Shown piece by piece: positions 44,180-52,093 of a DNA stretch of 64,000 nucleotides. Every line of letters begins with the position of its first letter. Within the stretch, counting starts at the first letter, position 1. The DNA is from Candidatus Fermentibacteraceae bacterium (GTDB lineage Bacteria > Fermentibacterota > Fermentibacteria > Fermentibacterales > JCC-6): contig JAMOUX010000026.1 of the NCBI GenBank assembly GCA_027067855.1, positions 169,727-233,726 on the forward strand, in the 5' to 3' direction. The notes under the pieces were generated by a model. The model had not been told where the DNA came from. It was given only the letters and a program-made list of their open reading frames with translations, and did no database searches. The position numbers and the translations under genes were made by a program.

Positions 44180-46600
44180 TTACCTGGAGACCACTGTTCT
44201 GAAAGCGGCGACCATGCCCCGGGAATCCGAGAAGCGAATTACGTAGATTCCCACGGGCACCCTGGAAACGTCCCATGTCAGGATGTGCCGGCCTGTCGGG
44301 AGTTCACCCTTGTAGATGGTTGCCACCAGCCTGCCCGAGACGTCGTAGGCGCACATCTCGAGGAAACCGTTACCGGAAAGGGAAACGGGAACGGATAACA
44401 GTTCCCGGGCCGGATTGGGCCTGGGCACCCCGACGAGATCGACGGATATCCGTGGTTCGTCTCCTGTTTCGGTTCCGTTTATGATTCCCTGGGCCGGGAG
44501 GGCGTTGTGCGAGGTGACCATCCACGTAATGCCGCTCAGGCTCCCGATGGAATCGAAAGCCAGGGTTACCGAGCCCGTGGAGTCGGTAAGTCCGCTGGCC
44601 CAGAGACTGTCATGGGAGATGCAAACCAGGGCGTTGTTTACGTCACCCTTGGAATCGGACACGTGGAAGGTGGCCTGGGTTGTGCCGGAAGGCAGGGTAT
44701 GCGGAGCGCTCACGTTCAGATCGTGGGGAACTTCCGTCCTCATGTCCATGGTGGGATCGCCGAACCAGTGGAACAGGTCGTACGTTTTTTCGGCGTAGGT
44801 TTTCCAATTTGAGCCGTACGGGCTGGACGGAGCCGCAGTGTACATTTCCGTCTTGGCGCAGGTCAGGGCCTGGCCCGCCAGGTAATTTCCCGACGGATCC
44901 GTGTAGAGAGCGGGCGGAGAGGTGAATTCGTCCACGAACGATTTGTGATGGCCGTAGGTGAGATAATCGTTGAAGTAGCTGTAGCTGACTTCGGTAGCCG
45001 CCAGGACTCCCACCGCACCGCCTTTCATGCATAAGAAATTTTCGGCGAAGCAGTCATCGTAGAACTTTCCGGTTAGGCAGTTCGTGCTCATCACCATTGG
45101 AGTCTTGTCCCCGTTGTTCAGCTTCAAGAGATCTTTTATATGAAAAGCGGGATCGGCCCACCCGCTGACCTCGCCGTGATCCCTGTGCTGAACCAGGAAC
45201 ACGCCGCCGTTGATGGCCTCGATGATTCCCGCCGCGTCACCGTCCCACACGATGTCGGAGGGGATCTTCTGCCCGGCGCTGGGCAGGTCATCCCTATAGT
45301 AGTACGGAGGAGATTGCGAGGTATCCTTTACATACTCGCGTTGTACTTTCTTGTCGTGGATGTTCATGTAGGAGTCACGCACGCTTTCCAGGGTGAAACA
45401 GAACCACCGGGTCGCCACGGTGCCGTTGCCGGCCTGGAGCATACCGGCGGTAAGGGCATGCCCCCAGAAATCCGAGTTCATTAGCGGATCGAATTGCCAT
45501 TTCAGGATTTTTGCTTCAACCACCGAGTAGTTATCGGCGGATGTTACGAGTCGTCCGTGGTGGATGTCCGGGATGTAATCATTACCGTCCACGCATACAT
45601 ACCTGTTATCGCTGTAACATCCCGTCGAAGATTTGTAACCGGTGAGATCTTTATGGTCACCGACGAAGAGAATGAAACTGGGAGGGATTTCCCAGTTATC
45701 ATATGCGTTCTTGATATAATCATGTATCTTTGACTGGCTCCAACTCCCGGCCGCCACCACAGCGGTGAGGTAACCTTGAGCCATCTTCTGTTGAATAAAC
45801 GAGTTCATCAGCGTATCGACGAAGTCGTCCCCGGCCATGATCAGTAGATCCGCGGCGTTTATATCGTCGGCTTCCTCGGCGTTCGTGGCTTTGACCACTT
45901 CGTTGGAAGGGTGGTGTATGCGCAAGTCGGCCCGTCCGAGTATGCTGGAGTTGACGAGGGTCCTGTAGACGTTCCGGAAGAACCTGCTTCTCAGCCTTGG
46001 CTCGACCCGGACCGTTTCCCCGAAATCGACCGTTACCCTGACCCTGGGGTAGATGGTGAGTTCACCCGTGTCGGAGTTCCATGCGAAAGGCACGACGGTG
46101 AAACGTCCTATATTCACCCCCCGGAGTACGCCCGCTTCTTCGAAGAAGGCTTTTTCGGAAGGAATCGAATCCTGATCGTAATACCCTGGAACATATGTGA
46201 AGCGGATTGGCACGGAGCCGTTGTCCGTTGGGATAGGTTGCATGGGATATGGCTTGAAACCGGGTACGACGACCGGTTCGATGATGGGTTTCACGGTTAT
46301 GTCCACGTTCGGCGACTCCGGGACGGCGGCGAGGAAGGACGCCTTGGGCAGCATGGGAGCTCCCTCCGCGTCCGAGTAGGGTGTCATCGAAGGAACCGAT
46401 ATGGTATTGAAGGTCATCCCTTCCTTCGTGACGGTGTTGGTGAAATAACCGGGCACGGTTATTTCCACCGTGAAGCCGGAAGAAGTGCATTCCAGCACAT
46501 CCAACCTGGCATGGGAAATATCGAAAATTCCAAGATCAACCCATTCGCCCGGCGCGAAGGACGCCATGGACAGCAGTATTATTGGTGTCAGGATCTTCAT
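44180..46600 (-). CDS. Gingipain-like C25 family cysteine peptidase with type IX sorting domain
   Basis: 806 residues. A signal peptide (MKILTPIILLSMASFAPG) is followed by a C25 propeptide-like region to about 210 and a caspase-like catalytic domain at about 245-620. Histidine is in LVQHRDHGEVSGW (His475 likely) and cysteine in MSTNCLTGKF (Cys508). The C-terminal 75 residues (from PRPNPARELLSVPV, with YDVSGRLVATIY and PVGIYVIRF) form a type A sorting domain of the type IX secretion system. So it is secreted across the outer membrane and attached or released at the surface. The gene has its own terminator and diverges from a PPC-like lipoprotein. Confidence 0.9.
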   Translation of the reverse strand: MKILTPIILLSMASFAPGEWVDLGIFDISHARLDVLECTSSGFTVEITVPGYFTNTVTKEGMTFNTISVPSMTPYSDAEGAPMLPKASFLAAVPESPNVDITVKPIIEPVVVPGFKPYPMQPIPTDNGSVPIRFTYVPGYYDQDSIPSEKAFFEEAGVLRGVNIGRFTVVPFAWNSDTGELTIYPRVRVTVDFGETVRVEPRLRSRFFRNVYRTLVNSSILGRADLRIHHPSNEVVKATNAEEADDINAADLLIMAGDDFVDTLMNSFIQQKMAQGYLTAVVAAGSWSQSKIHDYIKNAYDNWEIPPSFILFVGDHKDLTGYKSSTGCYSDNRYVCVDGNDYIPDIHHGRLVTSADNYSVVEAKILKWQFDPLMNSDFWGHALTAGMLQAGNGTVATRWFCFTLESVRDSYMNIHDKKVQREYVKDTSQSPPYYYRDDLPSAGQKIPSDIVWDGDAAGIIEAINGGVFLVQHRDHGEVSGWADPAFHIKDLLKLNNGDKTPMVMSTNCLTGKFYDDCFAENFLCMKGGAVGVLAATEVSYSYFNDYLTYGHHKSFVDEFTSPPALYTDPSGNYLAGQALTCAKTEMYTAAPSSPYGSNWKTYAEKTYDLFHWFGDPTMDMRTEVPHDLNVSAPHTLPSGTTQATFHVSDSKGDVNNALVCISHDSLWASGLTDSTGSVTLAFDSIGSLSGITWMVTSHNALPAQGIINGTETGDEPRISVDLVGVPRPNPARELLSVPVSLSGNGFLEMCAYDVSGRLVATIYKGELPTGRHILTWDVSRVPVGIYVIRFSDSRGMVAAFRTVVSR

Positions 46601-48312: not shown

Positions 48313-49560
48313 TTATCCCTTCCTCCCGGGAAGCGGAGAGCGCATGATCACGGAGGAGGGTATCACGGGATATTCGATGATCGCCCTGTACAACACGAAC
48401 TTGTGTCCGGGCCAGCCCAGTTTTTCGAATGCGTCCCGGAGCATTTCCAGGTACCGCGGGACGAAGGGGGTATAGGCGCTTTCCAGTCCCGGGCCGTGTG
48501 TGGAGACGTCGACTTCGATGGGAAGGATGCTGTTCGGGTTCTTCATGTCCGATGGTTTCCCCCAGTCGTAGCCGGTAAATTCTCCGAATACCAGCAACTC
48601 CGGCTTTTCCGGACCGTCGAGCAGATCCATGTGGACCAGTTGATCCAGCACCAGTTTCTTGACGGGAGTTCTCGCCCTGACCGCCACTTCCCGGTAACGG
48701 TCGTTTGCGGTCCTGAACCTGCTGGATGCGTTCCCGGCGATTTGCGCGGTTATCAGGGTTGTGGTTTCGGTATTGCCTATGGGGGCTTCACGAAGCTCGT
48801 GGATGACTCTTCCTGCGTAACATACCGAGCTGATGACGTCGGGCAGAGGTTCGGAACAGAAACGGCGGTAGAAGGGAACTTCCATGGGATCGGAGTTCCG
48901 TCCCGGTTGATTGTCGAGAGGACGAGGGGAAACCCTGTCCGGCACTGTTCCTTTATCGTCGATGAACCTGCTGCTTTCGAGAATCCACGGGACCTTCGGC
49001 CTGTTCCTGCGGAAGTTCATGAATCCCCTGATGTTTGCGACATCCATATTGACGCCGTCATCGGAGGGATGGAACGCCCAGGTGGATAGTTGGGTGACCG
49101 CCTGGACGCCAAGCAGGTGGCTGTACGCGTTGAATGCCGTCTTTTGTTGAGATAGATAGGCTTTCGATTTGCCCTTGCTGGAGCATGACATGAGCATCAG
49201 GTCGAATTCGCTCCTGCTGTCGGCGTGTCTTTTCACCATCTCTTCGAATGACTTGCAGGCCTGCTTGGCCCTCTTTATCAGTTCCGGCGGCGTACCCAGC
49301 TTGCTGCAGAGCCTGAGGAACTTGCCGCAGGCGACTTTTCCGGGAACGAACTGGGCGGCCAGGAAGGGATCCTCTTCGGAAACAACGTTGAAAATCTTCC
49401 ATCCCAATTTCTTGTCGATTTCCAGGATCCTGTACACATCCCGGGGGTTGTCCACGGGAATATCCAGTTGGACGAGGGTGTCGAGGATAACCGATTTTAT
49501 GGTGGAGATCGTTGATTTCAGGTCCTCGGTGAAGCGAGAATCCCGGGTTTTGTCCGGCAT
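48313..49560 (-). CDS. Conserved protein of unknown function
   Basis: 415 residues, no signal peptide, probably cytosolic. The first part is helical, with KKLGWKIFNVVSEEDPFLAAQFVPG, a sequence I have seen in planctomycete-type hypothetical proteins that begin with a DNA-binding-like helical region; the middle has KTAFNAYSHLLGVQAVTQLS and the second half is beta-rich (PIEVDVSTHGPGLESAYTPF). Not a named domain to me. The ATG has GAGGAAAGGA upstream. It converges with the PPC-like lipoprotein and diverges from the selenoprotein candidate. Confidence 0.7.
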   Translation of the reverse strand: MPDKTRDSRFTEDLKSTISTIKSVILDTLVQLDIPVDNPRDVYRILEIDKKLGWKIFNVVSEEDPFLAAQFVPGKVACGKFLRLCSKLGTPPELIKRAKQACKSFEEMVKRHADSRSEFDLMLMSCSSKGKSKAYLSQQKTAFNAYSHLLGVQAVTQLSTWAFHPSDDGVNMDVANIRGFMNFRRNRPKVPWILESSRFIDDKGTVPDRVSPRPLDNQPGRNSDPMEVPFYRRFCSEPLPDVISSVCYAGRVIHELREAPIGNTETTTLITAQIAGNASSRFRTANDRYREVAVRARTPVKKLVLDQLVHMDLLDGPEKPELLVFGEFTGYDWGKPSDMKNPNSILPIEVDVSTHGPGLESAYTPFVPRYLEMLRDAFEKLGWPGHKFVLYRAIIEYPVIPSSVIMRSPLPGRKG

Positions 49561-49711: not shown

Positions 49712-49748
49712 GGAGGAGCTATTAATCAACTAATGAAAAGGAGGCAAC

Positions 49749-50741
49749 ATGAAGGTTATGTTTTTACTGCTGCTGCTTTCGATGTCGGTATTCGCCGCGG
49801 AAAGGGTGGTCCTGTTCGAATACTTCACGCAGACCGGTTGAGGAACTTGTTACGACAGTTGGTCAACTGTCAAGAGCAAGCTTGAACCTTACGTTTCATC
49901 GGGTGACCTGGCGCCGTTGTACATCTTCTACAACGGCCCGGCGGCGAATTCGTTCAATTCCGGCAGGTTCAAATTCTACTCGGTCGACGCCACGCCCACT
50001 GTGAAGATGGATGGTTTGAAAGCATCATCCACGCCGTCCACTTATCCCGATGCGATAGACGAAAGGCTCAAAGTACCATCGTACACGGAAATAAATGTCA
50101 ACATCGTCGGGAATGTTTCAGGGGGTACCGCATACATCTCCGTCAAGGCGGAACAAGAACCCTCGGAAACCGATTCGATCAGGGTGTGGTGCGCGATAAT
50201 CGAGGATAAAGAGACCGCCGACTCCGACTGGGGTGGATACAGCGGTATGGAGATGATGTGGATTCCCGTATCGTTTCCCCTGGGCAAAGACGGTCGCTTC
50301 CTCAACTTCACCGGGCCGTATCCGCAGACGATAAACGTTTCGGGCGAATACAAGCTGAAACCGTCGGAGCACACATTCGAAAACCTCAGGGTTGTTACGT
50401 TCGTGCAGTACACCGGCGGAACGAAGGAATGCCTCAACGCCCACTACATGGATCTGCCCGACACGGCTACCGGGATTTACGATCCGGAGGCCGAGGCCAT
50501 GACAGGCGCCGGGCTTTCCGTTTGGCCCAACCCCTGCACCGGAGACATGAACATCGAGTGTTCCATTCCGGAAGGGATTTCGGGAACGGTACGGGTTTAC
50601 GATGTTTCCGGAAGGATCGTGGAGAGTTTCGCCGCGGGCGAAGCCACGTGCATACGTCTCGAGGAAGACGGCGTGTACTTCGTCACGCTGAACACCTCGG
50701 ACGGCGAGGTCGTCAGGCGGATGCTCACCGTTCTGAAGTAG
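49749..50741 (+). CDS. Predicted secreted selenoprotein: thioredoxin-like (Omp28-like) protein with UxxC motif and type IX sorting domain
   Basis: ATG 49749 (AGGAGG four bases before) opens a frame that runs to TAG 50741 with one interruption, UGA at 49839-49841 (codon 31). Reading it as selenocysteine gives 330 residues: a signal peptide (MKVMFLLLLLSMSVFAA), then VVLFEYFTQTG-U-GTCYDSW, which puts U in the first position of a CxxC redox motif. ATPTV at 81-85 supplies the thioredoxin cis-proline. The C-terminal 70 residues (VWPNPCTGDMNIEC, YDVSGRIVESF, GVYFVTLNT) are a type A sorting domain of the type IX system. A SECIS-like hairpin follows the UGA. Without recoding one would call only 49917-50741, which lacks signal peptide and active site. 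Selenocysteine insertion genes are not in this window. Confidence 0.85.
49839..49880 (+). promoter_or_regulatory. Bacterial SECIS-like element following the in-frame UGA
   Basis: After UGA (49839-49841) and 12 bases, GACAGTT (49854-49860) pairs perfectly with AACTGTC (49865-49871) around the loop GGTC (49861-49864). A lower helix CTTG (49846-49849) / CAAG (49877-49880) is possible across an internal loop. The first loop G is base 23 counting U of UGA as 1; the E. coli fdhF element has its GGU loop at 22-24. The loop sequence GGUC is the SelB-contacting kind. Confidence 0.8.
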
Positions 50742-50989: not shown

Positions 50990-52093
50990 TTAAATGCTCT
51001 CCGAGTCCGTCTGAATCGTATTCCTGCTTGATTTTAAAAAATCCAGATACCAATCCACAGACTTGTCGATTCCCTCCTGGATGGGGGTGGCAGGTTGATA
51101 ATCCAGATCTTCAACCAGGTCGGTCACGTCGGCAAAGGTTGCCGGAACATCTCCCGGTTGGATGGGCATCATGTTTTTTTCGATGGTCTTACCCAGTTTT
51201 TTCTCGATGGCGGTAATGAAATCCATCAGTTTAACGGGATTGTTATTGCCGATATTGTAGATCTTGTAGGGGGCTGAAGAACGAGATCTTTTGCCATCGA
51301 TACCATTCCATGTGGGATCCGGTTTTGCAGGATTATCTATGACACGGATTATTCCTTCGATAATATCATCAATATAGGTGAAATCCCGGAGCATTTCTCC
51401 ATTGTTGAAAACATCGATCTTTTTCCCCTCCAGCGCTGTTTTGATAAATAAAAACAGCGCCATGTCGGGCCGTCCCCAGGGGCCGTAAACGGTAAAGAAC
51501 CGCAAGCCTGTGGTTGAGATACCATAGAGATGAGCGTAGGTGTGCGCCATGAGTTCATTGGTTTTCTTGCTTGCAGCATACAAGGAAATGGGATGATCAA
51601 CACTGTCTTCTGTAGAGAATGGCAAGTTCTCATTGAGTCCATAGACCGATGAACTGGAGGCGTAGGATAGGTTGGTGACCCCATGATGTCGACACGCCTC
51701 CAGAATATTGAAAAATCCTATGATATTGCTATTGATATAGGCCTCAGGATTGATCAGACTGTAACGAACTCCCGTTTGGGCTGCAAGGTTACAGACGGCA
51801 TCAAACCGTTGCTCTTCAAAGAGCCGCATTACTGCGTTTTTATTCTCTAAATCGAGCTTAATAAACTTGTATTTTTTATTTTTTGTGGAAGTGAGAAGCT
51901 TATTGTAAGGGATATGTTCGCCATCTTCCTGGCTTGGGATGATTCCGCTGCGTTGCAGTCGTGCATACTTGAGATTGATATCATAGTAGTCATTGATACA
52001 ATCCAGGCCAATCGTTTCATCCCCTCGTTCAACCAACTTTTGTGCCAAATGCGACCCGATGAATCCAGCTGTTCCTGTAACCAGAATTTTCAT
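50990..52093 (-). CDS. UDP-glucuronate 4-epimerase-like NAD-dependent epimerase
   Basis: 367 residues, short-chain dehydrogenase fold. NAD motif GTAGFIGSHLAQKL at the start, catalytic SSSVYG near 150 and YAASKK near 175, and GLRFFTVYGPWGRPDMALF near 195, the block characteristic of UDP-glucuronate 4-epimerases (UDP-galacturonate formation for surface polysaccharide). The gene and its flanks are visibly richer in A and T than the rest of the window, with runs of TTTT and AAAA and codons such as ATA, TTA and AAA used more freely. That suggests recent horizontal acquisition. It is a single-gene unit. Confidence 0.9.
   Translation of the reverse strand: MKILVTGTAGFIGSHLAQKLVERGDETIGLDCINDYYDINLKYARLQRSGIIPSQEDGEHIPYNKLLTSTKNKKYKFIKLDLENKNAVMRLFEEQRFDAVCNLAAQTGVRYSLINPEAYINSNIIGFFNILEACRHHGVTNLSYASSSSVYGLNENLPFSTEDSVDHPISLYAASKKTNELMAHTYAHLYGISTTGLRFFTVYGPWGRPDMALFLFIKTALEGKKIDVFNNGEMLRDFTYIDDIIEGIIRVIDNPAKPDPTWNGIDGKRSRSSAPYKIYNIGNNNPVKLMDFITAIEKKLGKTIEKNMMPIQPGDVPATFADVTDLVEDLDYQPATPIQEGIDKSVDWYLDFLKSSRNTIQTDSESI

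Follow-up and report, generated by a model that had tools for sequence, protein, structure and literature searches.

A gene at positions 49749-50741 (+ strand) of a 64,000-nucleotide stretch of contig JAMOUX010000026.1 from a Candidatus Fermentibacteraceae bacterium (the window) very probably encodes an exported selenoprotein. The product would be a thioredoxin-like and Omp28-like redox protein, with a UxxC site whose UGA codon is decoded as selenocysteine (Sec) and a C-terminal tail that is predicted to address it to the cell surface via type IX secretion. Taken by itself, the identity of residue 31 as Sec is almost certain on sequence grounds.

The 330-codon frame runs from ATG 49749 to the TAG stop at 50739-50741 and, as an earlier note on this DNA had claimed, is open except for one UGA. 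This codon 31, the sole in-frame stop ahead of the TAG, lies in the context FTQTG-U-GTC and takes the first position of a CxxC-type motif (U-G-T-C) that is completed by Cys at codon 34. The predicted protein starts with MKVMFLLLLLSMSVFAA, which by eye resembles a signal peptide, and residues 2-13 form a helix in the predicted structure. UGA terminates 25 of the 44 long open reading frames (ORFs) of the window (at least 200 amino acids, chosen longest first, overlapping by fewer than 60 bases) and is therefore an ordinary stop here as well. Under the standard code, the ORF for this gene starts at TTG 49917 and spans 274 amino acids; the signal peptide and the active site are thus lost, a truncation by gene callers that the earlier note had foreseen.

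Codon 31 was investigated in homologues by a read-through search over 99 related genomes, the window's own included, at an E-value of 0.001, with loci drawn among the matches listed. At least 49 of the 99 genomes gave a match, part of the matches being to sorting tails only, and the codon was read by alignment after tail-only and weaker match rows had been left out. In 89 distinct genes (no protein segment equal to or contained in another), codon 31 was UGA in 52 and Cys in 37, the two states that the earlier note had expected, and codon 34 was Cys in all rows covering the position. The Cys genes comprised 30 with TGC or TGT at first reading and seven later matches without a stop, all of them Cys. 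Genes from outside the order were present on both sides, L097 and L098 with UGA, L099 and L100 with Cys. UGA-bearing genes occurred among the matches listed in 29 genomes (27 of the order's 42 and, in addition, G048 and G071), and SelB scored over its cut-off in 25 of these 29. Not counted were eight distinct fragments that lack position 31, L213 (its frame breaks at a UGA at query position 269), L214 (which starts at residue 34), and the fragment G025:C186, which ends short of position 31 and has internal TGA and TAA codons.

A selenocysteine insertion sequence (SECIS) had been suspected at 49839-49880, and a covarying hairpin was indeed found there, just behind the UGA. In the window gene, the UGA is followed by 12 nucleotides and then by GACAGUU-GGUC-AACUGUC; the 49839-49880 region folds at -12.5 kcal/mol (z -2.5), with 6 of 200 shuffles equally good. 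At the same spacing and without gaps, at least six of the seven stem pairs were present in 44 of the 52 UGA genes, but in only 2 of the 37 Cys genes (1 of the first 30, 1 of the later seven), and at the alternative offsets tried at most 10 of the 52 UGA genes reached this pairing. In an alignment of 50 UGA genes, 91.5% of the cells paired (at most 63.8% in versions with the stem slid), and 37 cells were changed on both sides, compared with a mean of 11 after shuffling (0 of 500 as high) and at most 9 in slid versions. When these 50 genes were recoded at random with synonymous codons, 2000 trials averaged 172 pairs and never exceeded 206. The 321 pairs observed lie above all of these recodings, so the hairpin does not simply follow from the encoded protein. 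The commonest loop was GGUC (26 of the 52 UGA genes), and the loop of the E. coli fdhF SECIS likewise holds GGUC. No Rfam family was found at the hairpin; the lone hit (E 0.97) was to a riboswitch on the opposite strand, far below the gathering score. When the window's own genome was searched with a model of the hairpin (R1), only this gene stood above noise (next E 1.15; selD absent from the 11 rows), and the model is therefore unable to list other selenoproteins.

The machinery on which the earlier note had made its proposal depend is present in the window's own assembly (1,861,467 bases in 44 contigs, 98.86% complete). selB scored 324.7 bits (cut-off 242.25), selA, which adjoins selB on contig C15, 505.7 bits (cut-off 267.9), selD 328.3 bits (cut-off 125) and tRNA-Sec 76.4 bits (cut-off 47), with ARAGORN calling the latter as SeC with anticodon tca. 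Judged by these genes, the organism should be able to make selenocysteine. Its selD (L102, contig C44) has an in-frame UGA of its own (MAASVGUAAKM), and SelD is probably a second selenoprotein of this genome; a verified SelD selenoprotein with UxxK is given in Table 1 of PMC13188914.

Several observations weigh against the interpretation of codon 31 as Sec or against a uniform redox function. In 4 of the 29 UGA-bearing genomes there was no SelB match over the cut-off: G002 and G035 showed split partial matches, and in G004 (67% complete) and G041 (77%) the best matches were read as other elongation factors. Eight of the 52 UGA genes fall short of six out of seven pairs at the spacing used, and two of the five covariation measures were not above shuffles, namely pairs changed on both sides (4 versus a shuffled 3.1; 145 of 500) and further pair types (11 versus 10.3; 209 of 500). 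One slid version of the stem even has five double-changed pairs. Taken singly, the window gene is less telling: all seven pairs arise in 109 of 20000 synonymous recodings, so that the case for the hairpin rests on the family. Furthermore, two database relatives, P0105 and P0110 (L085 type), have neither Cys nor Sec at the position (FTWNASPYD), which limits the statement that only UGA or Cys occupies codon 31 to the 89 genes read from genomes. Loss of the redox pair thus occurs, and redox activity does not extend to the whole family; P0105 and P0110 possibly represent a non-catalytic branch. A simple pattern search found no redox motif in the longer database proteins P0122, P0131 and P0132.

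We further asked by which route the protein might leave the cell. The type A sorting domain that the earlier note had recognized at the C-terminus was borne out by two models, Por_Secre_tail (PF18962; 33.4 bits, gathering score 27) and TIGR04183 (34.6 bits, cut-off 23). The window's own genome contains 33 sorting-tail matches, 31 of them over the cut-off and the window gene included, as well as a PorU-type sortase at 435.1 bits (cut-off 420). Together, the tail matches and the sortase favor a working type IX system, and export of the window protein by this route is, from these matches, likely. A different reading keeps the selenoprotein but leaves it in the periplasm or outer membrane, its sorting tail working independently of a classical type IX system. 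SprA was represented by a single stretch of 18.6 bits (cut-off 200), and a complete type IX system is therefore not established; also, many relatives from outside the order join the same Sec domain to other C-termini, which by eye are dockerin-like, FlgD-like or, in a Phycisphaerae gene (L140), cytochrome-like with multiple CxxCH motifs. Such a location is nonetheless unlikely, because the tail of the window protein lies above both curated cut-offs and is shared by its Sec relatives (TIGR04183 in 40 of 40 at E 0.1, PF18962 in 38 of 40 at E 0.01), and because the genome holds the sortase and the tail matches described above.

Alternative explanations of the UGA itself (downstream start, code change, pseudogene or error) were rejected on conservation, the hairpin, the machinery and the frame ahead of the codon. 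If UGA were a true stop, the real gene would start downstream, for example at TTG 49917, and encode 274 amino acids without a signal peptide. Gene callers do place it so, and the match reaches residue 31 in 0 of 92 database proteins (P0002 being the window's own). Nevertheless, we consider this highly improbable, since the pre-UGA frame is under strong synonymous bias, opens like a signal peptide behind a good ribosome site, and aligns with full-length, stop-free Cys homologues, and since codon 31 is either UGA or Cys in the 89 genes. Equally small is the chance that UGA is recoded but yields a residue other than Sec, such as Cys or Trp, because the code is reassigned or a suppressor tRNA is at work. 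Paralogues do have Cys at this place, but UGA is a regular terminator in the window, the genome has selenocysteine machinery including tRNA-Sec, and the hairpin accompanies UGA genes and not, as a rule, Cys genes. That the UGA is a nonsense mutation, marks a pseudogene or results from faulty sequencing or assembly can practically be dismissed. A single base would suffice, and the assembly is of metagenome type with 44 contigs, but the same UGA codon recurs in 52 distinct genes from 29 genomes and in 19 genes from 11 other genomes.

The Sec-containing protein is predicted to combine a thioredoxin-like with an Omp28-like fold, and the proline of its conserved TPT motif (residue 83) agrees with the thioredoxin-like cis-proline (ATPTV) that had been proposed. 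In a Foldseek comparison, the predicted structure resembled HBP35 (hemin-binding protein 35; 5y1a) of Porphyromonas gingivalis, a known type IX cargo. Both proteins have the domain order thioredoxin-like, Omp28-like, C-terminal domain, and HBP35 carries the active-site pair Cys48/Cys51 where the window protein has U and C; HBP35 binds hemin, and identity in the superposition is 15%. The likeness is qualified by the superposition of the whole chains, with a root-mean-square deviation of 15.3 and a template-modelling (TM) score of 0.57-0.59, and therefore only the thioredoxin-like and Omp28-like part is well matched. Foldseek rows below HBP35 (transglutaminases, factor XIII, Vps26 and antibody-type folds) had low TM scores and were discounted as a shared beta-sandwich. 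A profile of the family without its tail gave only weak thioredoxin-like matches against PDB sequences. The description as Omp28-like in the earlier note holds for the predicted fold, which the window protein shares with the Omp28 domain (PF11551, NF033782; 2r2c), but not for the sequence model, since PF11551 scores 15.4 bits and thus below its gathering score of 34.9. DUF1223 (PF06764; 2axo) is also among the closest known systems; we take 2axo to be a member of this family and know of no sorting tail or Sec in it.

Selenoproteins of a related kind have been predicted before. GOS_C was described in 2008 from 74 Sec sequences with a thioredoxin-like fold and UxxC (PMC2398784), where the passages on it name no secretion route. 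Table 1 of a 2026 review (PMC13188914) ties GOS_C to NCBIfam NF045500, named Omp28-related selenoprotein by NCBI, which has in common with the window protein a thioredoxin-like fold with UxxC and the relation to Omp28. At E 0.1, the NF045500 profile matched 20 of the 40 Sec relatives; neither L020 nor the window protein gave a match even at E 10 (curated cut-off 200). Scores of 16.7-40.2 bits for five other Sec proteins, and of 17.8-61 bits for eight of ten outside Sec domains trimmed to the thioredoxin-like and Omp28-like part, all stayed below the cut-off. No best stretch passed profile position 285 of 377, and the sorting tail was matched by another model. In a curated family scan, the window protein matched no selenoprotein model. 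Because GOS_C/NF045500 exists and the window protein is unmatched at E 10, the latter is, by sequence comparison, a remote form with a type IX tail within a kind of selenoprotein that had already been predicted, and the kind is not wholly new. The earlier proposal of a likely new selenoprotein thus stands as to the selenoprotein and gives way as to the novelty of its kind.

What had been called undescribed, the pairing of Sec with a type IX sorting tail, was likewise not found by us in the searchable literature, which did not cover two recent selenoprotein surveys. The same literature yielded nothing linking a selenoprotein with Omp28, selenocysteine with Fermentibacter, or Fermentibacter with type IX secretion. 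Envelope selenoproteins seen in Table 1 of PMC13188914 include a TonB-dependent receptor and an MtrB/PioB-type barrel, none of them labelled there as type IX cargo. New, then, are a Sec subfamily with type IX tails (at least 27 of the order's 42 genomes, among the matches listed) and Sec forms in at least 13 genomes outside the order. Matches to the database copies stop short of residue 31, which may explain why the family was overlooked.

A tree was built from 69 full-length proteins, of which 40 have Sec and 29 Cys; on it the Sec/Cys label needs two changes. The Sec-containing side comprises 41 rows (support 100/92), including one Cys gene, L058 (G026, CGPC). L058 is nested in a four-row group (100/99) and its hairpin forms only 2 of 7 pairs; with its position inside the Sec clade and the hairpin lost, it looks like a Sec gene that has reverted to Cys. 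Sec genes also occur in tandem, three each in G039:C41 and G040:C31 and two each in G021:C12 and G022:C107. At L062 (G022:C41), a Sec gene (UPSC) lies beside a Cys gene (CGPC) of the same family. The window genome has one match to the tail-less profile, and a phage search gave no match for the gene.

In one set of 35 loci, 34 belonged to Candidatus Fermentibacteria, Fermentibacteraceae, Fermentibacterales, Aegiribacteria, Sabulitectum or Hyd24-12. The 35th, L140, comes from a Phycisphaerae genome with SelB over the cut-off and has UGA at the same site (FTSVYUGSC). By eye, the UGSC domain of this gene (L140 3520-5320) is followed by a long, cytochrome-like C-terminal part with several Cys-x-x-Cys-His motifs. 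Searching with the tail-less profile matched at least 91 of 385 genomes, and 46 stretches from outside the order, drawn among the matches listed, were read together with L140; L097-L100, already read, and some rows (for example G332:C81:20055, G369:C55:148229 and G219:C30) were left out. In this set, UGA stood at the same codon in 19 genes and 29 had CxxC; L166 had CGU, and one L186 row lacked the position. The 19 UGA genes are L140 and 18 from ten genomes (G100, G141, G144, G146, G219, G252, G296, G299, G328 and G354); with L140's genome, G048 and G071, these make up the at least 13 outside genomes with a Sec form. SelB was over the cut-off in all three that were checked (G048, G071 and that of L140). 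By eye, the outside Sec proteins have signal-peptide-like starts and differing C-termini. In L166, Cys stands where Sec is usual and a UGA follows two codons on, which may be a shifted Sec site.

Coordinates of the gene and its predicted elements are collected in the table below. The nearest long ORFs on either side are on the minus strand (48313-49560 and 50990-52093), the downstream one encoding an NAD-dependent epimerase/dehydratase (PF01370, 192.3 bits). Further upstream (44180-46600, -), an 806-amino-acid protein combines a gingipain-type Peptidase_C25 domain and its propeptide domain with a sorting tail that passes the TIGR04183 cut-off, though not that of Pfam; it is another likely type IX cargo near the gene, going by its domains. 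Elsewhere in the genome (G000), C38:6750-14356 holds a PorU-type sortase over the cut-off and, in tandem, a second at 403.7 bits (cut-off 420), and a third, weaker PorU-type match lies on another contig (C2:47890-50925).

Table. Features of the predicted selenoprotein gene (window coordinates).
Feature	Position	Strand	Basis
Shine-Dalgarno-like AAGGAGG, directly 5' of the ATG	49738..49744	+	sequence
Whole gene, in-frame UGA at codon 31, TAG stop	49749..50741	+	
Predicted signal peptide, residues 1-17, hydrophobic, ends FAA	49749..49799	+	read by eye
Thioredoxin-like domain, residues ~19-107, conserved P83 in TPT motif	49803..50069	+	
UGA codon 31, predicted selenocysteine, first position of UxxC	49839..49841	+	homologue codons
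Cys34 of UxxC, predicted resolving residue	49848..49850	+	Cys in every homologue row covering the position
Predicted bacterial SECIS hairpin: 7-bp stem 49854-49860/49865-49871, loop GGUC 49861-49864	49854..49871	+	
Omp28-like beta domain, residues ~110-240	50076..50468	+	
Type IX secretion type A sorting domain, residues 258-325	50520..50723	+	TIGR04183, PF18962

In the mechanism that we propose, the hairpin 12 nucleotides behind the UGA would bind SelB together with Sec-tRNA(Sec). The predicted signal peptide would carry the chain to the periplasm, and passage through the type IX translocon would be guided by the C-terminal domain; a PorU-type sortase would then cut the tail and attach or release the protein. 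By analogy with HBP35, which with its Cys pair reduces insulin in vitro, Sec31 and Cys34 would act on disulfides in proteins of the outer surface or the extracellular space, either reducing or isomerising them. We lean towards the window protein acting as a thiol-disulfide oxidoreductase on the outer surface, and redox direction and substrate are guesses.

More broadly, and with similarly guarded confidence, we suggest that Fermentibacterota keep duplicated, selenium-dependent HBP35-like oxidoreductases that leave the cell via type IX secretion, and that the same Sec site in signal-peptide-bearing Omp28-like proteins of 13 outside genomes (ten further families and the Phycisphaerae genome) marks an extracytoplasmic class hidden because annotation truncates it. 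The active site lies outside the match in 92 of 92 close database proteins, an annotation that can be corrected. L058, having apparently exchanged Sec for Cys with loss of the hairpin, would offer a natural experiment on giving up Sec. If the proposal is true, an uncultured lineage pays the cost of selenocysteine for redox enzymes at its surface, and has duplicated them.
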